Source of the DNA: Nitrospira sp.
Lineage (GTDB): Bacteria; Nitrospirota; Nitrospiria; Nitrospirales; Nitrospiraceae
Length of the DNA stretch: 64,000 nt
Reading direction: 5' to 3'
Assembly (NCBI GenBank): GCA_036984305.1
Contig: BQWY01000001.1
Span: 3,059,501 to 3,123,500 of the forward strand
Notes under the pieces: generated by a model
Database searches by the model: none
What the model was told of the DNA's origin: nothing
Seen by the model: the letters and a program-made list of their open reading frames with translations, nothing else
Shown here: positions 28,934-54,007 of the stretch, piece by piece
How positions within the stretch are numbered: the first letter of the stretch is position 1
Layout: each line of letters starts with the position of its first letter
Made by a program: the position numbers and the translations under genes

Positions 28934-29045
28934 ACTGACCTCCACGCACCACTGTGCGTTCAACACACGCGATATTCGCTACGCCAACTTCTGGGATGAT
29001 ACCGTTCTCGGTCTCCCCGACCGGGGTCGCTCCATACCAGGCAAC

Positions 29046-29621
29046 CTAGTCGATGGAATAGGGCTGTGCTCGCATAACGGCGATTGTGGCCGTAGCCGAG
29101 ACTCCAGCATCGGTGAGGACGTAGGTCGTAAATCCCTTCTTCATCAGATCTCCCGTTCCGCCACCACCTGCAGCTCCCACGTCTCCGGCCTTGGCCGCCG
29201 CCTCGGCCTGCACGCCAGCTCTCCACGTACCGTCTGCGAGATCACGTAGCTTCTCGATGTCCTGGAAGATCAGGACGATTTTTTCTGCTCGTCCTCCCCA
29301 TCCCGCACCGAACTGGATCTCGGGGATTCGCAGATATGATCGCTTGTGGGTTGCCTTTTCCACCACTACCCCCGCACCTCCCCCGCCACCAACCAGAGGA
29401 AGCTTGACGACCTTCTTTTCCGCTACAGCATAGCCAACGGACTCCGCCAATTCATGTTCGGCTTGGGGATGTTGCTTGACCAGTTCTGCCAATGTGTCCT
29501 TTTCGAGCTCTTCGAAATAGGCACGTTTCTCATCTTTAGTCCCGAACAGACCGCCGGCACAGGCGCCGAGCATGAGCAGCACCAGCGCGCTCGCGACGCT
29601 CGTCATCATGGGTTTGTGCAT
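29046..29621 (-). CDS. SYLF-like lipoprotein
   Basis: 191 residues with the lipobox LMLGAC and a long Glu/Lys-rich helical region. The core (GYAVAEKKVVKLPLVGGGGG, AGVVVEKATHKRSYLRIPEI, QFGAGWGGRAEKIVLIFQD) has the glycine turn and strand order of the SYLF domain, but more divergent than the other four copies in this window. A Gly/Ala-rich insertion lies near residue 150. The lipid-binding role is inferred from the family. The gene lies 48 bp downstream of a sulfatase and 112 bp upstream of another, so co-expression with them is likely. Confidence 0.6.
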   Translation of the reverse strand: MHKPMMTSVASALVLLMLGACAGGLFGTKDEKRAYFEELEKDTLAELVKQHPQAEHELAESVGYAVAEKKVVKLPLVGGGGGAGVVVEKATHKRSYLRIPEIQFGAGWGGRAEKIVLIFQDIEKLRDLADGTWRAGVQAEAAAKAGDVGAAGGGGTGDLMKKGFTTYVLTDAGVSATATIAVMRAQPYSID

Positions 29622-29669
29622 GTCCTACCTCATCGTCGTCAGTGGGTCAACGTGTTCTTGCGGAGTCAC

Positions 29670-31268: not shown

Positions 31269-31295
31269 TCCACCTTCCTTTCTCATAGCTCCCGG

Positions 31296-31826
31296 CTAGT
31301 AGGCCAACGGAATCCCGCGAGCCAAACCGAACTTCAAGGCCGAACGGATCTTGTTTTCGATTTGCAAATAACGCGCGACCTTTGAGGCGGGCAACACTTG
31401 GCTGAGCCGCTCGGCATGTGATTGTCTCAGCGCGAGTTCGGCCTCTTCGATCGCCAACGACTCCTCGAGCAGAGCCTCGGCGGTTTTGTCCGTCAACGGG
31501 CCCTGTTCAAGCTCCTCGGCATAGGTCGAAATCGTGCGGGCGAGCCGTTCGTTGATCAAGTCGAGGTTTTCTTGGTAGGAGTCATAGAGTGGCCAAAATT
31601 GCTTGCCCTCTGTGGCCGTGAGATTCATGTTGGCCGCCACCATTTGCTTCTTCTCCGATTTGATTTTGGTCAGGAGAGCTTCGACATCGGCTTCCATCGC
31701 CCGCTCAGATGCTGATGGTGAAGTCGTGCTCGTGGTGACCGCCCCTGACGGCTTCGATTCCGACGCACAAGCGGTCAGTGCGATCAGGCCCGCCAGTGCC
31801 CATAATGATGTCGCTGTGTTTCGCAT
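31296..31826 (-). CDS. Small lipoprotein, Spy/CpxP-like helical protein
   Basis: 176 residues. The ATG at 31826 follows GAAGGAGGGAAGG. The lipobox is LTAC. After a Ser/Thr-rich linker the protein is wholly helical. KQFWPLYDSYQENLDLINER and LPASKVARYLQIENKIRSAL resemble small periplasmic helical chaperones or metal-response proteins of the Spy/CpxP type, though the LTxxQ motif is not clear. It is placed between an alginate-export-type porin and a sulfatase, on the same strand. A chaperone role for exported proteins is a guess. Confidence 0.55.
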   Translation of the reverse strand: MRNTATSLWALAGLIALTACASESKPSGAVTTSTTSPSASERAMEADVEALLTKIKSEKKQMVAANMNLTATEGKQFWPLYDSYQENLDLINERLARTISTYAEELEQGPLTDKTAEALLEESLAIEEAELALRQSHAERLSQVLPASKVARYLQIENKIRSALKFGLARGIPLAY

Positions 31827-32128
31827 GCCTTCCCTCCTTCGACGAAAACGGTGACACACAACAGTGCGCGATGCGACACAGACCATGATGGATTGGACGC
31901 GCAACCGCAAACCCCATCCAGGTTCTGTGCACCAAATGGCAACGGACCACCGTAGAGCGTGGACCGCATCGAACGGCGCGCGGGCGATAGGGGATGGCAT
32001 GCTACACCCCCTCACATAGGTATTCAAGATTGGACGGTTGTACTGAGGTTCGTACGAAGTGCCGGCTTCGGGCCCTCGCCGATGCCGAGGAAGCGCTGAC
32101 GGTCCAACGTCGACGATCCTTCCTCCTG
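31827..32128. other. Intergenic region upstream of the Spy-like lipoprotein
   Basis: 302 bases with no plausible gene. Short open frames on both strands lack ribosome sites. It should contain the promoter for the lipoprotein-sulfatase pair, but no clear box pair was found. Confidence 0.35.
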
Positions 32129-33703
32129 TCAGAACCGCATTTCGGTTTGGATGTAGAAGAACTCGCTGTTTTGAGCCGATGGGTTACCGGGAATTTCAGC
32201 CTGACGCTGAACATATGAGCCTTTGAAGAAGTAATCGTAACCCACCTCGATCTCGATCAACCTCGGGTCGGTGATCCATTGCCACGAGACACGCAATTCG
32301 AGATCCTGCCCCAGGAAATTCCCCGAGGCTCCGGTCGGATCCTGGAGACCCGATCCGACCCAGGCATCCTTCGCTTGTGCAAGGTACCAGGCCCGGTATT
32401 TCAGACTGACCGACGTGTCGGCGCGGGGCTGAAATCCCGCCCGCACGCCGGGAGAGCTGATGTTGGATCGAAAAAACGGGCCGAAGACACCAGTCGGGTT
32501 GTATTCGAACCGCCGCGCTCCAAAGAGCGTGTCAAACGTTTGGTTTGATTGTCCGTTGGGATCGACGGTTCCGCTGGCATAGTCGTATTGAAGCGCGACA
32601 CGGGGCCGCCAGGGTACATTAAAGGTATAGCCGAGCTCGGCATGCTCGAAGTGAGCGAAATGGTCTCGTCCGGTTTTCGTGCCCGCCTGAAATGCGGCCT
32701 CAGTCTCATAGTCCCACCAGCCCGGTGCGGCATACCGGAATACCCGCAGGCCATAGGTTCCAAACCTACGCTCTTCATCGACGTTCTGTCCGCCATTGAT
32801 GCCGAAGTAATACAGATCGAGATTCAGCCAGGGATGCTGACGGGTCTCATATTGGGTCCCCCAAAACAGCGTGTCACGGACCGGGACGAGCACGCCAAAC
32901 GTGTCTGAAACAGGCTTTCCGATGAACGCCCGAATGCGCCAATCCTGGGCTTGTGCCAGATTCCAATGGACAGCGTTGAAGGTGTTAGTGGTGTTGCGAA
33001 ACTCGTTTCTGGCAATCAAGCGCCGGCTTCCAAAGTCGAAGGTCATGCGGCCCACGTGCAGATCCGCGCGTAACCCGGCTCCGAAGAGATTGTCGAGTCG
33101 AATGGCGATAAATGCCTGTAGGAGGCGGTCTTGATCGAACAGCGAGGAATTGATGGTCCCAAGGAGTGCTGAGCTGGTGCCGACATCGGAGGAGTTCTGC
33201 GCCTCAGCGAAGAACCGGAACATCTTCCAGTCGAGCCCGAAGCGCAGACGCGTACGGAACGCGCCGCCGTCGACATCCGAGGGCAGTCCTTGGCGGAAAT
33301 TGTTGGTGAGGTTTTCGTAGCGCATCCGGTGATGCAGGCCCACGTCAAGCCAGCGGGGCGCATTCGTCAACGCCACGATATACCGATTCCAGCGGACTTG
33401 TGAGTCGTTGATCAGAATTTGGTCCGCTGTTTCCCGCCACGGCGTGGTTTGCGCTCGCTTGAGTTTTTCCATCGTATACTTGTGAACTTCCTTCGGAGCT
33501 TCACCGGCTTTCTCAAGCACCTTGTGGGTTCCTTCAATGAACGAGCCGCCCTGTGATTCTTGACCGCCGTTCTCTTCAGCCAAAGCCGGCCGTATCGAGA
33601 TGATACATTGCAGAATGAGAGCCGGCACGATAAACGACGGGCGGAGCAGAACTGGTTGAGAGTCGAGACTGGGATCGCGTACTGAAAGCATAAAGAGAAC
33701 CAT
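32129..33703 (-). CDS. Alginate-export-type outer-membrane porin
   Basis: 524 residues if started at ATG 33703; ATG 33691 is equally possible, and neither has a strong ribosome site. A signal peptide ends in R-P-A-L-A. The barrel region (VGLHHRMRYENLTNNFRQGL, GGAFRTRLRFGLDWKMFRFF, ADLHVGRMTFDFGSRRLIAR) matches the alginate_exp family, whose model AlgE exports alginate across the outer membrane of Pseudomonas. It ends in FFYIQTEMRF, with a terminal Phe. Genes of this family also occur in bacteria without alginate, so the substrate here is open. The neighbourhood of sulfatases suggests anionic or sulfated compounds (inference). Confidence 0.75.
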   Translation of the reverse strand: MVLFMLSVRDPSLDSQPVLLRPSFIVPALILQCIISIRPALAEENGGQESQGGSFIEGTHKVLEKAGEAPKEVHKYTMEKLKRAQTTPWRETADQILINDSQVRWNRYIVALTNAPRWLDVGLHHRMRYENLTNNFRQGLPSDVDGGAFRTRLRFGLDWKMFRFFAEAQNSSDVGTSSALLGTINSSLFDQDRLLQAFIAIRLDNLFGAGLRADLHVGRMTFDFGSRRLIARNEFRNTTNTFNAVHWNLAQAQDWRIRAFIGKPVSDTFGVLVPVRDTLFWGTQYETRQHPWLNLDLYYFGINGGQNVDEERRFGTYGLRVFRYAAPGWWDYETEAAFQAGTKTGRDHFAHFEHAELGYTFNVPWRPRVALQYDYASGTVDPNGQSNQTFDTLFGARRFEYNPTGVFGPFFRSNISSPGVRAGFQPRADTSVSLKYRAWYLAQAKDAWVGSGLQDPTGASGNFLGQDLELRVSWQWITDPRLIEIEVGYDYFFKGSYVQRQAEIPGNPSAQNSEFFYIQTEMRF

Positions 33704-33752
33704 GAACGAGCATGTTGGGAGAACAAACGCCGGGATGGATCCGGTTTGCTCA

Positions 33753-34379
33753 TCAATTCCTTCGCGCCTCTGAGTCTTCTCGATCACGACCCGATGGCCG
33801 GCCGTAGGCGTTTTTAGGGGAATGTGGTCCGGGAGGGTAATCAGTGAAAGCTTGCCCCACGGCTTCAATCGCCAGGTCCAGATTCTTCGTCCGCCTCTCC
33901 TTCAACGGAGCCATGATCGTGGCTCGCCAGACCAGTTTTTTGTTGGCCGATTCGACCAGATCCAGCACAAGCGTGCCCTCCCGCTACGAATAACTCGAGG
34001 TGGCTCCGCCGTACGTTGGACCATGTCCATATCCATTCTGCCAGGCTCTTTTCCACGTTGTAATCACATCGACCCAATAATAGACGGATAGATCCGCAAC
34101 CCGGTCCGCACCAACCTGTCGAAGGTCCTTGGCTTGAAGCTGCTGCGAGATGGCAGGCTCGATTCGATCTTTCAATGCGGCTTCGTCGGGCGTTCGCTTC
34201 TCACCGATTTCAGCCGGGTCGACGAAGGAAAAGGTCTTGTGCCGGGAAAAATCCACGGAAGGATCATGTTCGATACCGACTTCGAGGGTTGTGCATGCAG
34301 AGCACCAGCAGACGAAAAGAACCAGAATCCACTCCGTTCTTCGAAAAGACGTCACGAATAGATTCCCCAATCGACGCAT
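33753..34379 (-). pseudogene. DUF4136 lipoprotein gene with an in-frame TAG
   Basis: Read through, this is a DUF4136 lipoprotein of about 208 codons, like those at 54258-54839 and 55901-56473. It begins at ATG 34379, has the lipobox CSAC and the conserved VDFSRHKTFSFVD and DLSVYYWVDV. One TAG (plus 33984-33986) interrupts it in the segment ..SSYS-stop-REGTLVLDLV. The intact paralogues have a Tyr (YEYKEGTLIVDLV) at that place, and TAC or TAT needs only one base change to TAG. The frame continues past the stop to LVWRATIMAPL and the typical AIEAVGQAFTDYPP ending, without a frameshift. It is probably a recent nonsense mutation, a sequencing error, or a short product plus restart at GTG 33968. 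Confidence 0.8.
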
Positions 34380-34866
34380 AGGAGGAAGCCCGTCGTTTCG
34401 AGCCCGGAGGGTGCAACGGCGGCGCCCCGATGAGACGGGCTCGTTCGTGATTTGTAGACGAGGCCTCGTACATGAAGCGGTGGAGCAACGATATCGTGTC
34501 CTTCAGAATCACGTTGGAATCTGCACATCGAAGCCCCAGCCAGTCCGGTCGTTCCGTGCACATCCATGAATACATCTGGCATATGCCCTCTTAGGATAGA
34601 TCGAGTGAGGGCCGCAATCGATCGGTCCTTGTCGGTCGTCCCGTTCGCTGCTGCTGGAACCACTCACCCGGTAAGATCTGGCCGGCGCCCATGGCGCGAC
34701 ATGTCAAATGACCAACCCTAAGACACCCTTCGACGTCGACCTATCGGGGTCCAAGGGCTGGCGTTCACCCTGCACGCCCTGGGCAGCCTACATGATCGCG
34801 AAGAATCCTCTGAGCGCTCACGCATCAACGTCAAGCAACGGGGCAGCTTCGACATGCGTGACGAAT
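34380..34866. other. Intergenic region, no convincing gene
   Basis: 487 bases between the interrupted DUF4136 gene and the stop of the OprB-type porin. Several overlapping short frames exist on both strands, none with a ribosome site or recognisable motif. No repeat seen. Confidence 0.4.
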
Positions 34867-36306
34867 TTACAGTTTCACGTTGACGCGCAATCCGAATAGG
34901 AACGCCTCATCGGCGATCGCCCCCGCCCCGGGTCGGATGTATTGGAGGTCGGGCGTGACAATGAGCCATGGCGTGGCTTGAAAATTGTAGAACAACTCCA
35001 CGCCAGTCCCGTTCCGAATCCCGAACAAGTTCTGTGGAACCGGACCGAACTCGGTGCTGGCGCCGGTGTAGTACCAGCCCAGGCCGAACGTATCGCCACG
35101 ATTCCACTTAAACGGGCTGTCGCCGCCGATACCGGCGCTGAGAAAATACCTGACCGGAGTCGGATTCCCGTCACTCAATGAGACACGCCCGAAAACCCCC
35201 CATCCGCGCTCCTCATCGTCAGAATACCGCATGACGAATTGGTCGAATCCATAAAACACCGTATACCCCTGGGAGAGGGTCGGTGATGAAGCACCCCCTA
35301 TGTTCGGGTACTCCGGAGGCGGCGACAGGAGAAGATTGAGATTTCTCTGGTCGAAACGCTTCCAAATGACTCCGACGTGTTGGTCACCGGGCAGACCAAA
35401 AAGATTGGTCTTGAGTGTCACTTCACCAGCCACAATGACGCCCTTCGAATAGAGGTTGCTCAGCCCGACGGTGTCCGTCGTTCGGTCCTCGGGATCGCGG
35501 AAGGAAACGGCCATCCGGCCCCACTTCTGTGGGCTGACAACGCCCGCTATGAAGGAACTATAGGGGAGCCCTAATAAAAACGCCGGATTTGCCACGAGTG
35601 CCTGGTTCATAAACTGTTGTGTACCGTTGCCGCCGGCAAAGCGGTCCTGGTCCATCTCGCCGACCACGACTTTCTTACCGGCGACCACGACTAGATTTTT
35701 CGACAACGGTTGCACCAAAAAGAAGTTGGTGAGGTACGGAACACCCTGGTTGTTCGGCGTCGGCGGAAGGGCGGCCCCGAACACAGCCGGTGCCCCCGCC
35801 CCCGTTGACAGCGAGACGTTTCCGTAATCTCCCCACCACTGTTCCGCAGTGACCACCAGCTTGCCTTTGGGCAAATGGACGATCTTTTCAAGGTCAAAGT
35901 GTAAACTGTAATCGCCGCGTCCCGTGTACGCAAACCTGTCCCCTTGGGTTAAAGGTGGCGGAACCGGGGCGTTAATACCGCCTCGGATCCCAAAGCCAAA
36001 CTGTGTGATGTTACTGATGAACGTAACCCCAAGTTCCTGCAGACGGGATCGATACCCGCCCCAATCACCTGTCAGGGTAGGACGAATCCACAGATCGCAG
36101 AACGCGCAGCCTGCACCTTCCGACTGGTCGGCTGCTCCCTGCTGACGCGGATGATCGGTGCCATCTTGTGCAGACACCGGCTGTACGGTGACCACCATCG
36201 TCACTATCGCTAGGGCGGGAAAAAGCCCGCAAAAGAGCCTGAACCTTCCTCTCCTTTTGCGCCTCCATCGCCAGGATTCACCGACCCGTTCCCGAGGGTG
36301 ACGCAT
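34867..36306 (-). CDS. Carbohydrate-selective porin, OprB family
   Basis: 479 residues from ATG 36306, which follows GAGAAGG; the frame is open further upstream without a better start. A basic N-region and a hydrophobic core form a signal peptide ending VSAQDG. The mature protein begins with a CAFCDLWIRPTLTGDWGG segment and GYRSRLQELGVTF, the latter typical of OprB, and continues as a barrel. OprB proteins let sugars or other small polar solutes through the outer membrane. Lying 202 bp downstream of one sulfatase gene and in the same island as three others, it could import desulfated products (inference). The C-terminus is FGLRVNVKL. Confidence 0.8.
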   Translation of the reverse strand: MRHPRERVGESWRWRRKRRGRFRLFCGLFPALAIVTMVVTVQPVSAQDGTDHPRQQGAADQSEGAGCAFCDLWIRPTLTGDWGGYRSRLQELGVTFISNITQFGFGIRGGINAPVPPPLTQGDRFAYTGRGDYSLHFDLEKIVHLPKGKLVVTAEQWWGDYGNVSLSTGAGAPAVFGAALPPTPNNQGVPYLTNFFLVQPLSKNLVVVAGKKVVVGEMDQDRFAGGNGTQQFMNQALVANPAFLLGLPYSSFIAGVVSPQKWGRMAVSFRDPEDRTTDTVGLSNLYSKGVIVAGEVTLKTNLFGLPGDQHVGVIWKRFDQRNLNLLLSPPPEYPNIGGASSPTLSQGYTVFYGFDQFVMRYSDDEERGWGVFGRVSLSDGNPTPVRYFLSAGIGGDSPFKWNRGDTFGLGWYYTGASTEFGPVPQNLFGIRNGTGVELFYNFQATPWLIVTPDLQYIRPGAGAIADEAFLFGLRVNVKL

Positions 36307-36508
36307 GCGCCTTCTCAAGCACAACCTTGTCAGCGGATCCGATATCGCTCTGCTCATGACCCAAGGCTGGCTGCGCCACCAGCGAAGCAACGCAACAAGC
36401 GACGGCAACGAACGGCGCGCCAGAAAGGTTCCTTTCCATGGTGTCTCCTCCCATCCGTCATGTGCATGCACCCGACATCGCGACTCGCCGGGCCTTGTCC
36501 AGCGTGTA

Positions 36509-38083
36509 TCAGCCTCCGCCGGCTCCCCTCCGGAGCATCTCCAAGGCCTGATCGACGGTGAAGCTGGCGGCCTTCTGACGTGGGGGGTAGTCTTTGAAGG
36601 TCATGAGAAAGTGGCCGACGTAGTGCTGGGCCGGCACCAACAGGAAGGCATGATCGATCATCCAATCCCAGTAGGTATTGGAGGTGATCGTGGCCTTCTC
36701 ATACGGGTCGGTGCGTAAGTTGTAGATATAGGGAAGCCGCGTAGTCACAAACGGCTCTGCCCAGACTCCTAAAGTGCCTGCCATTCGCTGCTGCGCAAAG
36801 ACGAGCTTCCAGTTATCGTAGCGCAATCCCAAGAGATCGCCGTCGTCGGAGAAGTAGAAGAAAGACTCACGCGGTCCCTTCTTCTCCTGGCCGGTCAAAC
36901 TTGGCAGCAGGTTGAAGCCGTCCAGGTGCACCTTGTACGTCATCTTCCCCGCCTGATATCCCTTCAGCAGCTTCTCTTTGACGTCGGGGGCACCGGCGGC
37001 CGCCAGGAACGTTGGCGCCCAATCCATGTGGGAGACCATCTCGTTGGACACGGTGCCGGGTTTGATGTGCCCAGGCCAGCGCACCATGGCCGGCACGCGA
37101 AACGCCCCTTCCCAGTTGGTGTTCTTTTCGCTGCGGAACGGCGTCATGGCGCCGTCGGGCCAGGAGTTCATGTGCGGTCCATTGTCGGTGCTGTACAGCA
37201 CGATCGTGTTGTCCGCGATGCCGAGTTCATCCAATTTGTTGAGCACAGTGCCGACGTTCTTGTCGTGGTCGATCATGGTGTCGTGATACGGACTCTGCCA
37301 GCGCCCCGCCTGACCAATGCTTTCAGGTTTGGTATGGGTGCGGAAATGCATGTGGGTGAAGTTCACCCAGACAAACATCGGTGTGCCTGCCTTGGCCTGC
37401 TGCTCGATGAACGCCGCAGCACGGGCGGCGATGTCGTCGTCGATTGTTTCCATGCGCTTCTTCGTCAAGGGGCCGGTATCTTCAATCTTTTGCGTGCCGT
37501 CAGAATTCGCAACGCTATGGATGACGCCGCGCGGACCGAATTTCTTGCGGAAGTTCGGAAAATCGGATTCTTTGGGATAGTCCGGCAGTTCCGGTTCTTC
37601 TTCGGCATTGAGATGGTAGAGGTTTCCGTAGAACTCGTCGAAGCCGTGGGCCGTGGGCAACATGTTGTCTTTATCGCCCAGGTGGTTCTTGCCGAACTGG
37701 CCGGTGGCGTACCCCTGCGCCTTGAGCAGCTCGGCGATCGTCGGATCTTCTTTCTTGATACCGAGATCGGCGCCTGGCAACCCGACCTTGCTCAAGCCGG
37801 TGCGGAAGACGCTCTGCCCCGTGATGAAGGCAGAGCGCCCGGCGGTGCAACTCTGCTCGCCGTAATAATCGGTGAAAATCAGGCCTTCGTTGGCAATCCG
37901 ATCGATGTTGGGAGTCCGATAGCCCATCAGGCCTTTGGTATAGGCGCTGATGTTGCTTTGCCCAATATCATCGCCCCAGATCACGACGATATTGGGCTTC
38001 TTGTCCGCGGCAACTGCTGGCAGTGCGCTGCACACAAGCGCGATCGCGCCTACAAAAATGGAGCATTTAAGCAAATACCTCAT
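36509..38083 (-). CDS. Arylsulfatase with CTAGR motif (copy B)
   Basis: 524 residues. The ATG at 38083 follows AAAGGAGAGCG. The signal peptide ends in A-V-A-A. KPNIVVIWGDDIGQSNISA provides the metal ligands (Asp38, Asp39). Cys79 sits in CTAGR, followed by GKNHLGDKDNMLPTAHGFDE. The C-terminal region (RYDNWKLVFAQQ, YNLRTDPYEKA, HFLMTFKDYPPRQK) is shared with copies A and C. The enzyme should be periplasmic. It is 141 bp from the neighbouring sulfatase copy C upstream, so the two could share a transcript. Confidence 0.9.
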   Translation of the reverse strand: MRYLLKCSIFVGAIALVCSALPAVAADKKPNIVVIWGDDIGQSNISAYTKGLMGYRTPNIDRIANEGLIFTDYYGEQSCTAGRSAFITGQSVFRTGLSKVGLPGADLGIKKEDPTIAELLKAQGYATGQFGKNHLGDKDNMLPTAHGFDEFYGNLYHLNAEEEPELPDYPKESDFPNFRKKFGPRGVIHSVANSDGTQKIEDTGPLTKKRMETIDDDIAARAAAFIEQQAKAGTPMFVWVNFTHMHFRTHTKPESIGQAGRWQSPYHDTMIDHDKNVGTVLNKLDELGIADNTIVLYSTDNGPHMNSWPDGAMTPFRSEKNTNWEGAFRVPAMVRWPGHIKPGTVSNEMVSHMDWAPTFLAAAGAPDVKEKLLKGYQAGKMTYKVHLDGFNLLPSLTGQEKKGPRESFFYFSDDGDLLGLRYDNWKLVFAQQRMAGTLGVWAEPFVTTRLPYIYNLRTDPYEKATITSNTYWDWMIDHAFLLVPAQHYVGHFLMTFKDYPPRQKAASFTVDQALEMLRRGAGGG

Positions 38084-38224
38084 CGCCGCTCTCCTTTCGT
38101 CGTGCCACGATACGGGCACCAGCTGGCTCAACGCTTTTTTAATGGCCCGAGTCACGAAAGGCCGTGCGGTCTCTGAATATGACCTCGCCTCACGTCAGCC
38201 TTTTCATGCGCGTGACTGGTATTG

Positions 38225-39808
38225 TCAGTTCCCCGGAGCCGAGAAGCTCTCCATCTCCTGCAATTTCTTTAACGCCGCTGCGGCCTTCAGTGTGTTGTAG
38301 TTGATGTTGCCCGCGTTGAGGCTGGCTCCTTCCTGGAACGGATACCGCGGAATGCTGGATAGGAAGCCCTTCAGCTTTTGCTGAACCGGGACGAAGAGCC
38401 AGATATTATCGGCATACCAGCGTAAATACAGGCCTGATTCATGGGGCGCCTTCTCGTAGGGATCGGCGCGAAGGTTGACAATTTCCGGCCAGCCGGGCAC
38501 ATCGCGAACACCTGTGGCAATGTTGCCGTTCACGACGGCGAAGGACACCTTCCAGTCGTTCCAGCGCACCGCATTCAGTTCGCCGCCTTGACCGAAATAT
38601 AAGATCTCCTCGCGGGGGCCTTTTTCCGCGTCACCCTTGAGATAGGGTATGAAGTTGTACCCGTCGAGATGGGCCTTGAACGTTTTGCCATTGGCGGCAT
38701 AGCCCTCTTTCACCTTCTCGACGATGTCGCGCTCGCCTGCCGCCGCCAACAGTGTCGGCAGCCAATCTTCCTGCGAGAAAATCTCGTTGACGATAGTCCC
38801 CGGCTTGATGACACCCGGCCAACGGACAAGCATCGGCACACGGAAGCCGCCTTCCCAGGTTGTGCCCTTTTCGCCATGGAACGGCGTCACGCCGCCGTCC
38901 GGCCACGTGCCGGTTTCCGCCCCGTTGTCGGTGCCATAGACGACGATGGTGTTGTCCGCAATGCCGAGCTCATCCAACTGCTTCAACACGACGCCGACCA
39001 TATCATCGTGTTCGGCCATGCCGTCGGGATAGAGCCCGATTCCGGTGCGTCCCTGAGAGGATTTTTTCAAGTGCGTCCAGACGTGCATGCGCGTGGTGTT
39101 GAACCAAATGAAGAACGGTTTGCCTTCCTTGGTCGCCTTCGCCACGAACTTCTGCTCTGCGCCCAAGATCTCCTCGTCCACTGTTTTCATACGCTGCCTG
39201 GTCAGGGGGCCGGTGTCTTCAATTTTTTGACCCCCCTTGCCGTTGGACCATGTATGGAGCACGCCCCGGGGGCCGTATTTCTTCCTGAATTCCGGATCCT
39301 TCGGATAGTAATAGGTTTCCGGTTCCTCTTCCGCGTTCAGATGGTAGAGGTTGCCAAAGAACTCATCGAAGCCGTGCACCGTCGGCAGGTGAGAGTCCTG
39401 GTCGCCGAGATGGTTTTTGCCGAACTGTCCGGTGGTATAGCCTTGTCCCTTGAGCAGATCGGCAATGGTCGGTGCCCACACAGGAATGCCATGCGGCGAA
39501 CCCGGCATACCGATGGTCAACAGCCCCGTGCGGAACGGATGTTGACCGAGAATGAACGAGGCACGGCCCGCCGTGCAACTTTGTTGGGCGTAGGCGTCGG
39601 TGAAGAGGGCCCCTTCTTTGGCGATCCGGTCGATGTGGGGGGTTCTGTAGCCCATGATGCCGTGGTTGTAGGCAGAGATGTTGTGGACGCCGATGTCGTC
39701 GCCCCAGATGACGAGTATGTTGGGCTTCTTGTCTGCGGCCTGCGTCGCCGGCAGTCCGGCGAAAACGAGCCCAACGGTCAGTACTAGAATGGCAAGCGCG
39801 TTCTTCAT
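38225..39808 (-). CDS. Arylsulfatase with CTAGR motif (copy C)
   Basis: 527 residues. The ATG at 39808 lies after AAGGGG; a GTG two codons upstream (39814) is less likely. The signal peptide ends A-T-Q-A-A. Features are KPNILVIWGDDIGVHNISA (Asp37, Asp38), Cys78 in CTAGR, and GKNHLGDQDSHLPT. It differs from copies A and B in the C-terminus, where a helical tail (LKAAAALKKLQEMESF) replaces the usual end. It is the upstream-most sulfatase of the island and probably carries the island's main promoter in the 750-bp gap to its right. Confidence 0.9.
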   Translation of the reverse strand: MKNALAILVLTVGLVFAGLPATQAADKKPNILVIWGDDIGVHNISAYNHGIMGYRTPHIDRIAKEGALFTDAYAQQSCTAGRASFILGQHPFRTGLLTIGMPGSPHGIPVWAPTIADLLKGQGYTTGQFGKNHLGDQDSHLPTVHGFDEFFGNLYHLNAEEEPETYYYPKDPEFRKKYGPRGVLHTWSNGKGGQKIEDTGPLTRQRMKTVDEEILGAEQKFVAKATKEGKPFFIWFNTTRMHVWTHLKKSSQGRTGIGLYPDGMAEHDDMVGVVLKQLDELGIADNTIVVYGTDNGAETGTWPDGGVTPFHGEKGTTWEGGFRVPMLVRWPGVIKPGTIVNEIFSQEDWLPTLLAAAGERDIVEKVKEGYAANGKTFKAHLDGYNFIPYLKGDAEKGPREEILYFGQGGELNAVRWNDWKVSFAVVNGNIATGVRDVPGWPEIVNLRADPYEKAPHESGLYLRWYADNIWLFVPVQQKLKGFLSSIPRYPFQEGASLNAGNINYNTLKAAAALKKLQEMESFSAPGN

Positions 39809-40561
39809 GCTCACGGCCCCTTGTGTGTGAGTGATGCGATCGTCGCATCAACCGAGTGTTCAATGCCCACCCTTGTGAGGACCAAACCATGGGTAGACGG
39901 TCGATCCAGCTATGACGAAGTTCCAGGTCTCTGTCACTTCAAAGCATAACTTTCGTATAGCGATATACATACGGTACTCCTCAATCAGGCAAGGGAGAGA
40001 AGTAGTATCCTCCGTGCCGGTTTTACATATTCCGTGCCTGTCGCACCCGGAGTAGATTGACATGGATCACGTTGGTTTCAACGAAGAGGAAGAAAAGTCG
40101 AGCGTGATTCTGGCGAATTTAGCCTCAAGAGAACAGTCATCGTTGGGGCCTATCGCCACACGCTCGAAAGTATCGAAGGATTAGTGGGACAGGTTCGATC
40201 ATCGGGTACGCTTGTCGACAGGAAGCTGCTCCTCATCCACGGCCGAGCTGCGGATCGGCCACTGGCGGCCATAAGCCGGACCACGTATATAGAGACAGTC
40301 GTGAACTTTGTCCATACTCAACCATCGCAATTTACTAATATTTCATTCGAATTCCCGTCGGTTGCTCCGATCTCCTCGCCTTGGCGAAAGAACGAGGGGA
40401 ATTATGCTACACTCCCTCACCTGCTCATCAGCGTATCCCAGATCCTACCGTCGCACTGGACGCGTTCCCCCGGCGTCAGAAGAGTGAAGGCGATCAGCAT
40501 TGCGCCCATTTACTTGACCCATTTATTTGATGATAGGATGCGCCACTGCGCAGAGGGTTTG
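39809..40561. other. Long intergenic region with divergent promoters expected
   Basis: 753 bases between the divergent sulfatase copy C and a SYLF gene. It is AT-richer than its surroundings, notably around 40325-40355. An open plus-strand frame runs through from 40184 into the SYLF gene, but it has no ribosome site before 40562 and no recognisable sequence. A small dyad lies at 39955-39968. It is the most likely place for regulation of the sulfatase island. Confidence 0.45.
39955..39968. repeat. Short dyad GTATA-GCGA-TATAC
   Basis: Five-base perfect arms around a GCGA loop, 147 bp upstream of the sulfatase copy C start. It could be an operator half-site pair or a small GNRA-loop hairpin. 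It is short enough to be chance. Confidence 0.25.
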
Positions 40562-41344
40562 ATGATCGATCGGAAACCAATCAGCACTTCGTCACCATCC
40601 AGCGCTCTTCCCGATACTGTCCGCATCACATCCGATGGCAGGCAGACCTCTCTTCTACTTCTCCTCGTGTGTCTGGTTCAGTTGATGTGGCCGCTTCGAG
40701 CCGGAGCCGTAGAGCTCGAGCACGTGGAAGAGATCATCGATGAGAGTCGCCTCACCTTCGCCCGCATGGTAGGACATCCTCACTTGGGTTGGTTCAGGGA
40801 CCACGTCCGCAACGCTCGCGCCATTTTCATCGTGCCTCGCCTGACACGGGCAAGCTACCTGTTCGGTGGCGCGTGGGGTACCGGTGTACTCCTGGTCAGA
40901 AACCAGTCCGACAACGGTTGGAGCGAGCCGGCCTTTTATTCGGTTCTCGGCGCGAGCTTCGGCTTGCAGATCGGTGCCTTGACATCAGAAATCGTCGCGG
41001 TGACGACCAGCCACGACGGAGCGTCCGAGATGGCCGATGGGGTGTTTACGCTCGGACTCGACGGAATCGTCGCGATCGGACGAATGGGAGGAGGCGTCAA
41101 AGGATCCTTGGACGTCGCCTCCGGAGCCGGGTATATCGCGCTGAGCACCAATGAGGGCTTCTTCGCGGGTCTGGCGATGGAAAGTACGTTGGTCTTTGTA
41201 AGGAGCGGCGCGAACGAGACCTACTATGGCCGTCCGGTCGAACTGGCCGATCTGAGAGAACGGCGCGCGCTGCAGTGGTACTCCAAGCGGCTGAAAAAAG
41301 CCGTTGCACAGGCGACCGCAGAAACGGGGGAGCACACGCAATGA
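40562..41344 (+). CDS. SYLF-domain protein, coupled to an EEP-fold hydrolase
   Basis: 260 residues. The ATG at 40562 has AGAGGG upstream. A late hydrophobic stretch (LLLLLVCLVQLMWPL, residues about 31-45) is the signal or anchor. The domain shows the SYLF pattern: ARAIFIVPRLTRASYLFGGA, WGTGVLLVRN, PAFYSVLGASFGLQIGALTS, FAGLAMESTLVFV and the closing YYGRPVELADL. Its TGA overlaps the ATG of the following gene (ATGA), so the two are translated together. SYLF domains bind lipids, and the partner belongs to a superfamily that includes lipid phosphodiesterases; this pairing is the best clue to its role. Confidence 0.8.
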   Translation: MIDRKPISTSSPSSALPDTVRITSDGRQTSLLLLLVCLVQLMWPLRAGAVELEHVEEIIDESRLTFARMVGHPHLGWFRDHVRNARAIFIVPRLTRASYLFGGAWGTGVLLVRNQSDNGWSEPAFYSVLGASFGLQIGALTSEIVAVTTSHDGASEMADGVFTLGLDGIVAIGRMGGGVKGSLDVASGAGYIALSTNEGFFAGLAMESTLVFVRSGANETYYGRPVELADLRERRALQWYSKRLKKAVAQATAETGEHTQ

Positions 41345-42567
41345 CGGGCACGCCGACAACCTGGATGGTCGCGTTCTGGGTCATGCTCGGCTGTGCCTGC
41401 GCCCCTATGACCGCGCCTTTGTATGACACTGGACCGCTCACCGTTCCGCACGGGGAAGGCCCCGCGAGCTTCACCGTCCTCAATTACAATGCATGGCACG
41501 GACTCGATACGGGCGAATTCTGGGTGACAGCCAGCCAAACAGCCGAGCAAAGTCAGGCCCGGCTGGAATTCCAGGTCGACCTGATCACCGCCGCTCGGCC
41601 CGACCTCATCCTGCTCCAAGAGGTCAATCCCTTGCCCAACCAAGCCGCACGGTACGTGCAGGCCCTGGCCGAACGCGGCTTGGCCTACGACGCCATCCAC
41701 CAGGTCGACGCCTGTGGGATACGGATCCGTGGTAACGCCGCCCTGATCCCCGGCCTCAACAATGGCCTGGCCATCCTCGCTCGACGTGAGCTGCATCTGC
41801 GCAGGTTGACCGGACTCAAATTGAGTGGCGAGATCGGCAGTTGCGAGAGCGTCTCGGGACTCCAATTCGAGGAACTTCGCTACGCCCTGATCGGGGACAT
41901 CACCCTCCCCGAAACGGGACAGCACTTTTTGGTGACCAGCACGCATCTCCATTCGGGCATTGAGGCAGGGGCCGCCTTTCTCACCACGCTCGAGCGGGCA
42001 CACCGCGCAGGCCATCTCCCCCAATACCCGGAATTTGAATGGGAGGTCAAACAGGACCGGCTTCGCCGGATCGGCGAGTTGGATCTCCTCGTGCGATCCC
42101 TGCGGGTGTTTCGACGACAGGGTGTCTATGCCGGGTTTGCCGTCGGCGGCGACTTCAACTTCGAGTCCGACTTTCCGGAATATGAGGAGGCCGTTCACCT
42201 ACACATAGAAGACGCCTACATGCGCGCCGCTTCTCACCACGCCTATTACACGGCAGACCCCGGAAACAATGCCTGGATCGGGAGCGGAGAGGAGCCGGGC
42301 TTTCCGCCTCAGCTCGACCACATCTTCAAACACCTGCCGAAAGATCTGGCGAGCAAGGCCCACGAGGTGTACCGCCTGGAAACCGCACGACCCAGGCGCA
42401 TTGATTATCTCTGGGTGGAATCGTTCCTCCCAGGCTATTGTGTGAACCAGACGTTGTTCGGTACGGAGACGAATACAGATGGAATGCCGGGCTCCGACCA
42501 CTTTGGGGTGCTGACGACATTCACCCGCGGTCCCGAGCCATGCGAACGCGCCCGTGCCTCACAATGA
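41341..42567 (+). CDS. Exported endonuclease/exonuclease/phosphatase (EEP) family protein
   Basis: 408 residues from ATG 41341. The hydrophobic N-terminus ends in a lipobox-like MLGCAC, so it is probably a lipoprotein or secreted. EEP signatures in order are VLNYNAWHG (metal-binding Asn), ILLQEVNP (metal-binding Glu), TSTHLHSGI (catalytic His), FAVGGDFNFESDFPEYEEAV (Asp/Asn pair), YLWVESFLP and GSDHFGVLTTF (final Asp-His). All catalytic positions look intact. The superfamily covers DNases, sphingomyelinases and inositol phosphatases; the activity here is open. Export plus coupling with a lipid-binding SYLF protein favours a lipid or phosphodiester substrate outside the cytoplasm (inference). 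Confidence 0.8.
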   Translation: MTGTPTTWMVAFWVMLGCACAPMTAPLYDTGPLTVPHGEGPASFTVLNYNAWHGLDTGEFWVTASQTAEQSQARLEFQVDLITAARPDLILLQEVNPLPNQAARYVQALAERGLAYDAIHQVDACGIRIRGNAALIPGLNNGLAILARRELHLRRLTGLKLSGEIGSCESVSGLQFEELRYALIGDITLPETGQHFLVTSTHLHSGIEAGAAFLTTLERAHRAGHLPQYPEFEWEVKQDRLRRIGELDLLVRSLRVFRRQGVYAGFAVGGDFNFESDFPEYEEAVHLHIEDAYMRAASHHAYYTADPGNNAWIGSGEEPGFPPQLDHIFKHLPKDLASKAHEVYRLETARPRRIDYLWVESFLPGYCVNQTLFGTETNTDGMPGSDHFGVLTTFTRGPEPCERARASQ

Positions 42568-42720: not shown

Positions 42721-43434
42721 TTACTTGATCAGCTTGGCCGACGCCTCACGCAGATCGCGCGACCCGGGATTGCTGACGGTGCCGTTGACGATGTCACGCG
42801 GTTCGACCGGCTTTCCATAGTAGGCACGATTGGACTCGGCGGACACCGTGACGACGGCGCCGTCCAGTGCAATCCCTGCAAAGACACCTTTCTTACGGGC
42901 ATAGGCAACCAGATCCGCGTGTATTCCATGGGCCGAGGCGCCTTGACCCTCTGGGCCAACCGCCAAGCCTGCGCCCACTCCCAGTGTGAATTCACTGCTC
43001 TGAAACTCCTTGAGCCCTCTCTCGCTCTTGACGATGACGATGATTTCCGATGCGTCCGCACCGATCTGCAGTCCGAAGCTGGCCGACCCAACACCGTAAA
43101 ACGCCGGGCCTGTCCAGTCGCCGGTTTTGGGGTCTCGTGCGATCAGCACACCGCTCCCCCCTGCGCCTCCCACGACGAATGCGCCTCTCAAAAGCTGCGG
43201 CATGATGAAGAGCGCCCGGGCCTCCGATCCGAGATCCTCCAATAAGTGTTTCATGCTGGGATCGGTGCTAAACGCCTCCACCGTCACACGCGCCTTGTCG
43301 ACGAGTTGTTGCTGGGGGGAGTCTTCAGCGGCCTGGGAATCGGAGAGGCTCCATCCAACGACGGCACTCAGCACCAAGCCGGCCAGCACGATTCTCTGCG
43401 CGTCCCGGTTGCGCAGCATCAGATACGTCTCCAT
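42721..43434 (-). CDS. SYLF-domain (YSC84-like) periplasmic protein
   Basis: 237 residues. The ATG at 43434 follows GGAGG. A signal peptide ends near S-Q-A-A. The single SYLF domain is complete: QQLVDKARVTVEAFSTDPSM, ARALFIMPQLLRGAFVVGGA, GGSGVLIARD, FGLQIGADASEIIVIVKSER, FAGIALDGAVVTV, and the closing YYGKPVEPRDIVNG. It is closely similar to the copy at 45300-46022 and to the truncated copy at the left window edge. It converges with the EEP gene (153-bp gap without a visible terminator). Confidence 0.85.
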   Translation of the reverse strand: METYLMLRNRDAQRIVLAGLVLSAVVGWSLSDSQAAEDSPQQQLVDKARVTVEAFSTDPSMKHLLEDLGSEARALFIMPQLLRGAFVVGGAGGSGVLIARDPKTGDWTGPAFYGVGSASFGLQIGADASEIIVIVKSERGLKEFQSSEFTLGVGAGLAVGPEGQGASAHGIHADLVAYARKKGVFAGIALDGAVVTVSAESNRAYYGKPVEPRDIVNGTVSNPGSRDLREASAKLIK

Positions 43435-43969: not shown

Positions 43970-45139
43970 TCAGCCGGCATCGCGCACCAGACGAAACCCG
44001 AGATGGTTGGTACCGGTGTCGGGTTCGCCCTTGCCACGGCCTCCAGCAATATACCGGGCGCAATACTGATCGGTGCACAGAAATGAGCCTCCCTTGTGCA
44101 CCTTCTTTTTCACGCCGGGTTCGCTCGGGTCGACACTATCGGCTGGACCTTGTGGATCGTGTGCAATCGGCCCCTGCGATAGGAGCGTCCGATAATAATC
44201 GTGTCGGTACCAATCGCTCGTCCACTCCCATACGTTTCCCGCCATGTCGTACAACCCATATCCGTTTGGAGGAAATGATCCGACAGGGGCAGCATGGGCA
44301 TAGCCATCCTCCTGGGTATTCCGATCCGGGAAATGGCCCTGAAACGTGTTGGCCATGATGTTTCCCTCCGGCGTGAATTCGCTCCCCCAGGCATAGGGTT
44401 GACGGTCGAGTCCCCCGCGCTGCGCGTATTCGAATTCAGCTTCCGTGGGCAGCCGTTTCCCGGCCCACTTTGCATAGGCCTGGGCGTCCTCGTAGGCGAT
44501 ATGGACGACCGGCTCTCGACCGCGGCTCTTGATACTGCTCTGCGGTCCTTCCGGATGGCGCCAATCGGCCCCCTTCACATAGCTCCACCACTGAAAATGA
44601 TCGTGCAATTTCACGGGGTGATCGGGCGGAGTGAACACGACCGAGCCGGCCACAAGGTTTTCCGGCGGCGCGCCTGGGAAATCCTCGGCACGCGGGGTAC
44701 GTTCCGCGACCGTCACGTACTTGGTTGCACCCACGAATCGCTCGAACTGTGAATTCGTCACTTCCGTGCGGTCTATCCAAAAGCCATGGACCGCGACGCG
44801 ATGCCAGGGTTGCGCATCCGGAAAGTCATCGGCCCCCATCCAGAACTCTCCTCCAGGAATCCACACCATACCCTCCGGCGATGGGCCGGGGGGCGGGGCC
44901 GCGTCCGCGGAAGCAGGCCCAGGGATGGCTCCGTCAGGAAGAGAGCCCGTCCGCGCACCTTCTGGCTTAATTCCGCGACCGGCTTTTGCCGATGCAATCC
45001 CCATGTCACAGGTCATCTTCGGATCTCCTGGGCGGGAGACCGAAGATCCCGATTGGACCGCATACCACCAACCGACCGCGCTCGCACCGGCCAAGAGCAC
45101 AATTGCCAGCCCTGCCGTGATCAACTTCCGCCTCATCAT
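43970..45139 (-). CDS. Membrane-anchored formylglycine-generating enzyme (FGE/SUMF1)
   Basis: 389 residues. The N-terminus (basic, then hydrophobic residues about 7-27) is a membrane anchor or signal, followed by a Pro/Gly/Ala linker to about residue 90. The FGE fold then shows MVWIPGGEFWMGADDFPDAQ, RLPTEAEFEYAQRGG, GLYDMAGNVWEWTSDWY and KVHKGGSFLCTDQYCARY. Cys355 and Cys360 have the spacing and context of the copper-binding active-site pair of human FGE (C336/C341). It should therefore oxidise a sulfatase cysteine to formylglycine. The ATG at 45139 is preferred; a TTG three codons upstream is also open. Four sulfatases lie 4-19 kb away on the same strand and are its likely substrates (inference). 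Confidence 0.88.
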   Translation of the reverse strand: MMRRKLITAGLAIVLLAGASAVGWWYAVQSGSSVSRPGDPKMTCDMGIASAKAGRGIKPEGARTGSLPDGAIPGPASADAAPPPGPSPEGMVWIPGGEFWMGADDFPDAQPWHRVAVHGFWIDRTEVTNSQFERFVGATKYVTVAERTPRAEDFPGAPPENLVAGSVVFTPPDHPVKLHDHFQWWSYVKGADWRHPEGPQSSIKSRGREPVVHIAYEDAQAYAKWAGKRLPTEAEFEYAQRGGLDRQPYAWGSEFTPEGNIMANTFQGHFPDRNTQEDGYAHAAPVGSFPPNGYGLYDMAGNVWEWTSDWYRHDYYRTLLSQGPIAHDPQGPADSVDPSEPGVKKKVHKGGSFLCTDQYCARYIAGGRGKGEPDTGTNHLGFRLVRDAG

Positions 45140-45299
45140 GACGTTCAACTCGCCGGTATCGGCTCAGAGGTTCCACTTCCAATCATGCAACGCTCAATGA
45201 TGCGAGCGATACACTAATTCGTTCAGTAACCAGACGAGCGCAGCCGGTACATGCGAACGACGGGTCTTTCGGTCGCATTAGTTGGTGCCTGTCTTGCTC

Positions 45300-46022
45300 T
45301 CACTCGAGCAACGCACGTGCTGCCTCGCGCAAGGCGGATGTTCCTGGATTTTTCACCCGGCCTTCAATAATGTCACGGGGCGATACCGGCTTCCCATAGT
45401 AGGTGCCGTTCGCGTGTTCCCCAATCGTCACAAGAGCTCCTCCGAAGGCCACCCCGGCGAAGAGCCCGGTTTCACGGGCATACGCCACCACCTCCGCGGG
45501 GATCCCATGAGCAGACGTTCCTTTGCCGCTCGACCCAGCTGCTAATCCAGCGCTCCCGCCTAGCTTGAAATTCGCCTCATAGAAATCCCGCACGACTTGG
45601 TCCGATCTGATGACGACGACGATTTCGGATACATTGGCTCCCACCTGTGGCCCCAAGTTGAGGGAACTGACATTATAGAAGGCAGGCTGAGACCAGTATC
45701 CGGTGTGCTCCTCACGAACCATCAACACCCCGGTCCCGCTTGCGCCGCCAACGACCAACCCCCATCGAAAATAATCCGGCAGGATCAACAGCGCTTTCGC
45801 CTGAGGCGCCAGCTCGTGGAATACGGTTTTCATCTTAGGATCCGCCGTAAACGCCTCCAATGTGGCTCGTGCCTGATCCACCATCTGCTGCTGAGCCCGG
45901 TCAGCCGCATGGCCGACAACAGGGCTCACGTGAACGAGCAAGGCCAACAGGAGTACCATCTCGGGGGCGCGTGGCCGAGGCGACATCAATACGGACCCTC
46001 TCCACACCAGTTGATGAATCAT
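45300..46022 (-). CDS. SYLF-domain (YSC84-like) periplasmic protein
   Basis: 240 residues. The ATG at 46022 follows GGGGAG. The leader includes a hydrophobic stretch (MVLLLALLVHVSPVVG) ending V-V-G-H-A-A. The domain is complete: QQMVDQARATLEAFTADPKM, AKALLILPDYFRWGLVVGGA, SGTGVLMVRE, LGPQVGANVSEIVVVIRSD, GVAFGGALVTI and YYGKPVSPRDIIEG. It lies 160 bp upstream of the FGE gene on the same strand. Function unknown; lipid binding is inferred from the family. Confidence 0.83.
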   Translation of the reverse strand: MIHQLVWRGSVLMSPRPRAPEMVLLLALLVHVSPVVGHAADRAQQQMVDQARATLEAFTADPKMKTVFHELAPQAKALLILPDYFRWGLVVGGASGTGVLMVREEHTGYWSQPAFYNVSSLNLGPQVGANVSEIVVVIRSDQVVRDFYEANFKLGGSAGLAAGSSGKGTSAHGIPAEVVAYARETGLFAGVAFGGALVTIGEHANGTYYGKPVSPRDIIEGRVKNPGTSALREAARALLE

Positions 46023-46211
46023 TGATTCTCCCCGCCTACGCCTCCGCTCATAGCCCATGTCCATTGACGCCAGCACTTTCTTCCATCCAAGTCAGCGTGA
46101 CCCAGTCGTGAATTGAGCGATGCGCCCATTGAGATTTCCCCGTCGAGATGGGCCTCCGTCTCCTCGTTGAGCCATGGCCGGCCATATCGCCCTGCTCCCG
46201 AATGATTCCGT

Positions 46212-51745: not shown

Positions 51746-54007
51746 TTACGGTATGCCGAGAAGAAAATATACGGACTCTTGGCCACCTTCGCTAAACGCC
51801 TGCCCGTAGGCGACATACACAGGCCCCAGGATCGTATCGGCACCGATGAACAGGCTGCCCGACGGACGGATGAGACGATCGTTTATTTGGGTGATGCCAA
51901 GCGTCGCACGCGTGCCTTCAATCGATCCACCCACGTACACTGCCCTGCCGATGACCGACGGTAGTGACGTGACCTTGTACATATACACCCCCCGCGCGAG
52001 AGCCGCTTCCGTGCCTAGCAGCTCGCCGATGCGGTACCCGGACCCCCGCTGGAAGCCGCCGAGGAGAAACGGGTCATAGGGCGGAAGATCCCCATAGAGG
52101 GTCTTGCCGTAGTACCCGGCCACTTCGAAAGAGTGATCGCCGAGGGTCTTTGCCGCCATGACGAGGACCTCGGTCTTGTTGTAGTTATCTTGCGATCCGA
52201 GACTTTGGCTGGTGCCGAAGGTTCTGACTCGAGCTAGCAGGCCATTGCGCTCGAATTGAGGACCGTCGATCCGGTCGAGGGTTGCGCTTCCGGTATAGCC
52301 GACTTGCGTTCGATTGAGATTCGGGATGACTTGCAGGACTCCGAAATCTTCCTCGGCACGGAGCACTCCTCCGAAGCCCCCCACGCGCAGCTCGCCGTAC
52401 TCATTCTGCACACCCAGATCGTAGTGCCCACGTGCATACTCTACCCGGTATTCGCCGATTCTTCTCCCTTGGAGGAATAGCACGATGGGCTCGTCTTGGA
52501 GTTCAATACGTGGCGCCATAAATGCGTGTCCCCGCGGTGAGACAGGCTGATAGAATTCGCTGGCCAGACGTTTCCGGAAGCCCAGCTGCAGGTCATTCCG
52601 CCACTCGGCTCCAAGCGAGTTAATCCACGTCATGCGATGACTGACACTCACATTGAAGCGGGTCTGCTGCGAATCGGAGGCGAGCCCAAGCCCAAACCTG
52701 ACATAGTTTGGTCCCCACGACTTCTCGACCCCCCGGACGTCGACGGTGCGCGACCCTTGTTGGTCCAAGACTTGATAGTCCAATCGCTCGAAATCGCCAC
52801 GACCATAAATGGTGGCGAGCCGTTTGTGGAGGGTTTCGAGACTGAACTCGTGTTCCGGCAGGTGCTTCGGGTCCAGACCTGGTACGCCAGTCAACTCCCG
52901 CTCGATGACCTCGGCATTCACACGCCCCTGGGTCGTCGCCACCCGCACGTCGATTACGGAAGGGACAACGGGCAATCGAGCAGCCACCGACTCACGCCAG
53001 GCACGGTAGGCCGTGTCGGACACTGAAAATTTGCTCAGCGCTTCCACCTTTCCCCGCGCGGCGGCCTCGCCTTTGGGAATCAGTGTCATGGCCTCAGCAA
53101 AATTCGCGGCGTTGAAATCTCCGAGTTGCGGTTCAATCAGCACGTCCGTTGGCCGCAGGGAGGCCAGGGATTGATGGACGTTTTGCTCGGTGAGCACATT
53201 GAACGTCTGAAGCAAGATGCCCGTGGGTGAGCTGAGTTCCTCGCGCCGGAGCAGCCCGCTGCCCAGATTGACGGCAATGACGACGTCCGCACAGGTCGTG
53301 CGTGCCGATGCGACGGGCAGGTTCATCACCAAGCCGCCGTCGACATAGAGCACGCCGTCGATCTCGACGGGGGCCAGGACGCCGGGCACCGACATGCTGG
53401 CGCGCATCGCCTTGACCAGATCACCACGCCGGAACTCCTTGATCGCCCCGGACTCGAAATCCGTGGCCACGGCCCGGTACGGGATCGGGAGATCGTCAAA
53501 ATCTTGATCGGCGAAGTTCCCCGCCTGCGCGACCATCTCGCGCAATTTGAATTCGACCTTGAATCCAGCCGTCAGGGCGTTTGGCAAGAGGACCCCGATG
53601 CCCCTCTGCCCTAACTCCCAGGGAAACTGATTTTCGAACTCCAGGCGGAACAGGTTTTCGTACTCATCGCGTTTTGCTTTCGAGGGGATCTCGGATCGCG
53701 GCGGATCATCCGAAAACAGATCATCCCAATCGATTTGCCCAAGCTGATGGGTCATCTGATCGAGCGGGACCCCCGCTGCGTAGACCCCACCGACGAGCGC
53801 GCCCATACTGGTGCCGGCAATGCAGGCGATCGGAACCCGCATCTCCTCGAGCACCTTGAGCACCCCGATGTGGGCGACGCCCCGCGCACCCCCTCCACTC
53901 AGGACGAGGCCCACGCGAGGAGACTGTGCATCAGAATGCGCGTGGCGGGGGACAACCAGTATGAGGAGGAGGAACAGCGTGATGAACGTGCGTAATCGGA
54001 TAATCAC
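51746..54007 (-). CDS. Patatin-like phospholipase with C-terminal barrel (PlpD-like)
   Basis: 753 residues. A signal peptide is followed by a patatin domain: glycine-rich oxyanion loop GGGARG (about 38-43), nucleophile elbow GTSMG with Ser67, and the catalytic Asp223 in YVDGGLVMNLP. From about residue 350 a POTRA-like segment (RVNAEVIERELTGVPGLDPK) leads into a 16-strand-type surface-antigen (BamA/TpsB-like) barrel that ends YFLLGIP. This arrangement is that of type Vd autotransporters such as Pseudomonas PlpD, a phospholipase A exposed at or released from the surface. The start is a GTG at 54007; no strong ribosome site is visible. Transcribed toward the SUMF1-fold gene. Confidence 0.87.
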   Translation of the reverse strand: MIIRLRTFITLFLLLILVVPRHAHSDAQSPRVGLVLSGGGARGVAHIGVLKVLEEMRVPIACIAGTSMGALVGGVYAAGVPLDQMTHQLGQIDWDDLFSDDPPRSEIPSKAKRDEYENLFRLEFENQFPWELGQRGIGVLLPNALTAGFKVEFKLREMVAQAGNFADQDFDDLPIPYRAVATDFESGAIKEFRRGDLVKAMRASMSVPGVLAPVEIDGVLYVDGGLVMNLPVASARTTCADVVIAVNLGSGLLRREELSSPTGILLQTFNVLTEQNVHQSLASLRPTDVLIEPQLGDFNAANFAEAMTLIPKGEAAARGKVEALSKFSVSDTAYRAWRESVAARLPVVPSVIDVRVATTQGRVNAEVIERELTGVPGLDPKHLPEHEFSLETLHKRLATIYGRGDFERLDYQVLDQQGSRTVDVRGVEKSWGPNYVRFGLGLASDSQQTRFNVSVSHRMTWINSLGAEWRNDLQLGFRKRLASEFYQPVSPRGHAFMAPRIELQDEPIVLFLQGRRIGEYRVEYARGHYDLGVQNEYGELRVGGFGGVLRAEEDFGVLQVIPNLNRTQVGYTGSATLDRIDGPQFERNGLLARVRTFGTSQSLGSQDNYNKTEVLVMAAKTLGDHSFEVAGYYGKTLYGDLPPYDPFLLGGFQRGSGYRIGELLGTEAALARGVYMYKVTSLPSVIGRAVYVGGSIEGTRATLGITQINDRLIRPSGSLFIGADTILGPVYVAYGQAFSEGGQESVYFLLGIP

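Follow-up and report, generated by a model that had tools for sequence, protein, structure and literature searches.

A gene for a SYLF (Ysc84) domain protein and a gene for a putative phosphodiesterase of the EEP superfamily were found to form a conserved functional pair in Nitrospiria. This conclusion is well supported, and the two-part module proposed by the initial annotation of this DNA agrees with the same overlap at 10 of 10 junctions, with the matching trees of both proteins and with the finding that no other gene set is common to all ten neighbourhoods. The window, a stretch of 64,000 nucleotides from a Nitrospira sp. genome of 4.35 Mb (11 contigs), carries the pair with the following features:

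40553-40557, + strand: GAGGG, Shine-Dalgarno-like, 4 nt before the SYLF start (by reading the sequence)
40562-41344, + strand: SYLF (Ysc84) gene, upstream member of the pair; 260 aa, PF04366 match, signal-peptide-like N-terminus
41326-41332, + strand: GGGGGAG, Shine-Dalgarno-like, within the SYLF gene, 8 nt before the EEP start (by reading the sequence)
41341-41344, + strand: ATGA stop/start overlap of SYLF and EEP; 4 nt, equivalent overlap in 10/10 direct pairs
41341-42567, + strand: predicted EEP-superfamily phosphodiesterase-like lipoprotein gene, downstream member of the pair; 408 aa, PF03372 match

The ATGA overlap had been noticed before and its coordinates proved correct. Since the same 4-nt stop/start overlap was present in all ten directly paired loci (ATGA in seven, GTGA in three), it is not due to chance.

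Distribution and inheritance of the pair

The EEP family was detected in 23 of 269 genomes of the class (A2 profile, E up to 1e-10) and in 18 of 175 genomes of the family (A2 profile, 1e-20), and no strong match from beyond the class turned up in a 395-genome sample of the phylum. The named relatives were Nitrospira and Nitrospirota MAGs. Coverage beyond Nitrospirota consisted of a plasmid tblastn with P0002, which gave no match, of viral contigs, among which no relative of EEP profile A2 was found, and of one scan of genome contigs with a single protein, which returned four loci, all from Nitrospirota. Full-length EEPs amounted to 19 copies in 17 genomes, a count that leaves out truncated second copies (G012, G299) and six genomes that hold nothing but fragments (G048, G052, G137, G144, G296, G466). 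G296 and G466 contain short remnants of EEP (L078:8183-8404, L089:8251-8969), which are probably decayed copies, and G293 holds three full-length copies of the family (L070, L071, L072), one of them paired with a SYLF gene.

Ten of the 19 full-length copies, in ten genomes, were located directly behind a same-strand SYLF gene (G000, which is the window genome, G001, G022, G044, G293, G302, G343, G363, G436 and G451; judged by length, L021, L022 and L023 are contigs of G436, G302 and G343 and were counted once). The adjacency search thus showed the pair to be conserved in relatives, the lack of which had been named beforehand as an argument against the module. Identity went down to about 40% among paired EEPs and to 30% among their SYLFs. 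No SYLF-EEP fusion was noticed in the loci read. A 4-nt overlap as a general habit of SYLF genes was considered and rejected, since it is missing between closely spaced neighbours of the SYLF-FGE (3 loci) and SYLF-MGH (2 loci) types; in G363 and G293 (L101:7760-11486, L097:18263-19898), a short gap separates a SYLF gene from the MGH1-like glycoside hydrolase gene that directly follows it.

The other nine full-length copies had no directly adjacent SYLF gene and one EEP genome, G074, had no PF04366 match at all, so that related EEPs can do without SYLF. Both genes are present in G130, about 80 kb apart. A different SYLF-type protein lies about 0.44 kb upstream of the unpaired EEP in G139 (Ysc84 3.4e-6). 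In G032, a SYLF-type protein without Pfam match, alike to that encoded at window positions 29046-29621, is found one BON-domain gene upstream. The product of the latter window gene, an additional SYLF-like lipoprotein, has no Pfam match but one to the BPSL1445 family (3.3e-8).

The EEP tree placed the ten paired copies within an 11-row group (support 93/97) in which G130 was the only unpaired row, and the paired/unpaired label required 2 changes versus a shuffled mean of 6.5. Likewise, the paired SYLFs made up one side of a 100/100 branch opposite 14 further SYLFs from the same or related genomes. A larger SYLF tree, with 12 best-scoring other SYLFs of the class added (a small part of the many non-paired SYLFs at 200-254 bits) and 7 of the 'other' kind kept, grouped the ten partners and the G130 SYLF in 11 rows (100/99). 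G130 occupied the same place in both trees (97/94 for EEP; 84/73 for SYLF, with a long-branch warning). Assignment of its SYLF to the pair type by a two-profile score was dropped, as its 239 bits resembled many unpaired SYLFs in the class scan. That scan used the paired-SYLF profile and gave 357-408 bits for the ten partners and 254 for the next best protein, the former scores being inflated by the presence of the partners in the profile.

Species of genus g6 were split into two pair lineages in both the EEP and SYLF trees, suggesting that the pair was inherited or transferred as a unit. The identity matrices of both proteins were correlated (r=0.974, a raw value that includes species history). 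Five pairwise comparisons gave dN/dS values of 0.10-0.33 for EEP and 0.12-0.41 for SYLF, which indicates purifying selection on both.

Features of the SYLF and EEP proteins

The SYLF protein matched Pfam Ysc84/SYLF (PF04366) at 7.7e-16 and 58.4 bits, above the gathering cut-off of 25.1, and the solved SYLF structure of BPSL1445 (7OFN) at 3.7e-6. The match to the BPSL1445 equivalog NF049970 of NCBIfam (5.1e-14, 52.2 bits) stayed under its 200-bit cut-off. By reading of the sequence, the N-terminus is signal-peptide-like and ends with AGA, and the paired SYLF protein is probably exported. Export signals had been attributed initially to both proteins; this view can be retained for SYLF, while EEP looks like a lipoprotein rather than a simply exported protein. 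The lipobox-type Cys at the end of its signal (C20) was kept in 19 of 19 aligned copies, even if the window protein's own lipobox (GCAC) is not a textbook one. From these features, EEP would be a lipoprotein anchored in the outer membrane.

The EEP protein matched Pfam Exo_endo_phos (PF03372) at 1.9e-8 and 34.8 bits (gathering cut-off 24.5), as did all 12 members of the profile alignment A2 (E up to 1). Residues N50, E94, D271, N273, D386 and H387 were kept in 19 of 19 aligned copies, as were H202, H204, D306, N310, D355 and cysteines 125, 168 and 367; Cys 401 aligned in 15 of 19 copies and, in the smaller alignment, in all 12. The set of metal-binding and catalytic residues (N, E, D-x-N, D-H and His), assigned by motif, was thus complete. 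PMC10704324 (section 8) names the metal ligands of B. cereus sphingomyelinase and of GlcNAc-PDase, and the first six residues above, mapped by motif, are equal in kind to them. Together with H202/H204, these invariant positions suggest that EEP is a metal-dependent phosphodiesterase.

In the profile search, the solved proteins nearest to EEP were sphingomyelinases, namely staphylococcal beta-hemolysin (3.9e-6, covering about 130 of 403 profile positions only) and Listeria sphingomyelinase-c (0.0013). Between these two ranked a bacterial EEP without a named function (1.9e-4), and TDP2 came after them (2.6e-3); another search of this kind gave a similar outcome. The single window sequence had no match in the PDB. 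Two AlphaFold2 models (5 sequences each) were poor, with pLDDT values of 47.6 and 48.3, and placement of the substrate pocket from them was dropped for this reason. Foldseek, run on the first model only, returned EEP folds with the DNA-repair protein TDP2 first and human neutral sphingomyelinase 16th, a ranking on a poor model that serves only to recognize an EEP fold. NCBIfam models placed neither the single EEP sequence nor the family members. The curated sphingomyelinase C model TIGR03395 was matched by one of 12 members at E 0.14, about as weakly as nuclease models (PRK05421 EEP model 0.014, CdtB-type 0.064, xth 0.13; one of 12 members each). 'Sphingomyelinase-like' therefore denotes a weak lean of EEP and not a placement. 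As to the other argument raised in advance against the module, a clear DNase-like active site, no DNase-specific family placed EEP in the NCBIfam scan of 12 members.

Genomic setting and possible function

The comparison of neighbourhoods covered ORFs up to 5 kb from each of the ten pairs, or less where a locus ended sooner. Recurrence in 9-10 of the ten loci was limited to SYLF, EEP and the antisense shadow ORFs over both. Next came FGE and sulfatase clusters in four loci, those of the window's lineage. Three loci, all from one genus (g2), shared patatin and some other clusters, and G293, G363 and G451 had other neighbour clusters. SYLF and EEP thus stay together in three different settings. 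The main neighbours in the window are:

42721-43434, - strand: second SYLF gene (Ysc84 2.1e-29), convergent neighbour outside the overlap pair
43970-45148, - strand: gene for an FGE-type sulfatase-modifying enzyme (2.6e-78)
45300-46076, - strand: third SYLF gene (Ysc84 3e-25), before the FGE gene
51746-54007: patatin-like phospholipase with an attached Omp85-type domain, some 9 kb away from the pair

Sulfatases, FGE and porins dominate over phospholipases around the window pair, the nearest lipid-active genes being that of a fatty-acid cis/trans isomerase and, about 9 kb on, that of the patatin-Omp85 protein. The FGE gene, four sulfatase genes and the genes for two porins, one OprB and one of alginate-export type (26561-39814 and 43970-45148), can be regarded as a sulfatase set with its own maturation enzyme. 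The G436 locus displays SYLF3, FGE, sulfatase, SYLF and EEP in succession on one strand. A different setting was found in G001, G022 and G044, where a same-strand patatin-like phospholipase gene lies upstream of the pair (Pfam matches 1.8e-13 in G001 and 2.7e-14 in G022; the G044 protein is 92% identical to that of G001) and a 129-137 aa protein is encoded just before SYLF; in G044, a glycerophosphodiester phosphodiesterase (GDPD) gene adjoins the patatin gene (3.7e-29).

All six PF04366 genes of the 4.35 Mb window genome are clustered within about 70 kb (G000:C1:3036357-3105162, which corresponds to window 1-46076 and about 23 kb before the window), and similar SYLF clusters exist in G293 and G363. 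These two genomes also carry, directly upstream of the pair, two tandem relatives of an exported protein family without Pfam match that is represented at window positions 31296-32027.

On balance, we tentatively favour an envelope-anchored phosphodiesterase with a dedicated lipid-binding SYLF partner, acting on phosphodiester lipids, and give it a chance a little short of even. A lipid substrate is favoured on account of the weak affinity of EEP to sphingomyelinase C and because one genus has phospholipase and GDPD genes near the pair. Through the overlap, translation of both genes would be coupled, and they would be co-translated and co-inherited as an envelope module. The SYLF protein, probably exported, may bind a membrane lipid and present or loosen it for EEP, itself predicted to be exported and lipid-anchored, and the tethered enzyme might cut this phosphodiester-linked lipid in the fashion of a sphingomyelinase or phospholipase C, for turnover or scavenging of phospholipid. 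That the substrate is a lipid and that SYLF presents it are inferences. Lipid or phosphodiester processing had already been suggested by the initial annotation; the conserved residues and the two lines of evidence above lend it some weight, while the rank of TDP2 above sphingomyelinase on the poor model counts against it, as do the nine EEPs without adjacent SYLF, the absence of PF04366 in G074, the lack of a curated sphingomyelinase assignment and the sulfatases and porins of the window. In the most specific form of this view, a sphingomyelinase-like phosphodiesterase tethered to the membrane would receive a lipid of the envelope that SYLF extracts or presents, both proteins making up a periplasmic or surface system of phospholipase C/D type with an obligate SYLF partner, encoded as one translational unit in Nitrospiria; this precise version is rather unlikely.

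Glycan phosphodiesters are the main rival to lipids because of the sulfatase setting and of the GlcNAc-PDase precedent. It is possible, if rather improbable, that EEP works with the sulfatase, FGE, OprB and alginate-porin set and strips glycans, on the surface or in the environment, of groups attached by phosphodiester links (phosphocholine or phosphoethanolamine, for instance), with SYLF keeping it at the membrane. The OprB and alginate-export porins of the window, the sulfatase and FGE clusters within 5 kb in 4/10 loci and the existence of an EEP group that acts on GlcNAc-6-phosphocholine and clusters near sphingomyelinases (according to the part of PMC10704324 available) are in line with this explanation. 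However, six of the ten paired loci lack such a cluster within 5 kb, three of them having a phospholipase instead, and one would less expect an enzyme acting on glycans to have a partner that binds lipids. Another explanation, which we regard as unlikely, is mere co-expression of two envelope-stress proteins with separate jobs on one transcript. Other envelope or stress genes (MscS, LEA_2, MGH glycoside hydrolase, M48) occur nearby in several genomes, and G130 has kept both genes at a distance, but the exact overlap was retained in three different neighbourhoods and, among the SYLFs tested, this SYLF clade was found with this EEP clade only. The EEP superfamily is rich in nucleases, and this, the first rank of TDP2 in Foldseek and the single-member matches to PRK05421, CdtB-type and xth models would fit a nuclease or nucleotide phosphatase that scavenges phosphorus at the cell surface or in the periplasm, with SYLF co-expressed for envelope reasons, yet such a role is quite unlikely given that sphingomyelinase surpassed TDP2 by profile (3.9e-6 versus 2.6e-3) and that phospholipases are neighbours in one genus.

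Relation to known systems

The module is real and conserved, is built from two known families and seems to be undescribed: the literature searched, with most subscription papers outside its scope, held no description of a SYLF-EEP pair, in agreement with the initial impression that this was not a described system. A bacterial SYLF protein locked to one enzyme provides a concrete handle on what SYLF proteins do. If the favoured lipid-processing reading is true, bacterial SYLF proteins would gain an enzymatic partner and lipid processing would join the envelope biology of Nitrospira-type bacteria.

Staphylococcal and Listeria sphingomyelinase C share with the window EEP the EEP fold and a similar motif around GGDxN and T-x-D-P-x-x-N. 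The window protein differs by being a predicted lipoprotein, by extra conserved cysteines and by a helical insert before the R-I-D-Y motif. The GlcNAc-phosphodiesterase group (PMC10704324, available part) comprises exported bacterial EEPs with the same kinds of metal residues, likened here by description; its members are mostly 219-357 aa long, use a sugar-phosphocholine substrate and, unlike the window EEP, come with no mention of a SYLF partner in that part of the source.

Regarding SYLF, BefA is another bacterial member, which acts on animal beta cells and can be likened to the window protein by description only (PMC5154760, available part). The Brucella envelope integrity protein EipA is structurally SYLF-like according to the accessible portion of PMC10787603, which mentions no EEP partner for this alphaproteobacterial protein; in the window, only the second SYLF (42721-43434) matched EipA, at a sub-threshold 0.039. 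A further comparison is with the BPSL1445-family SYLF lipoprotein (PDB 7OFN; NF049970), whose SYLF fold is reported in the same portion of PMC10787603 to bind lipids and phosphoinositides. The window SYLF shares with it the SYLF domain and an export signal, but is far below the equivalog cut-off of that family and is locked to an enzyme gene.
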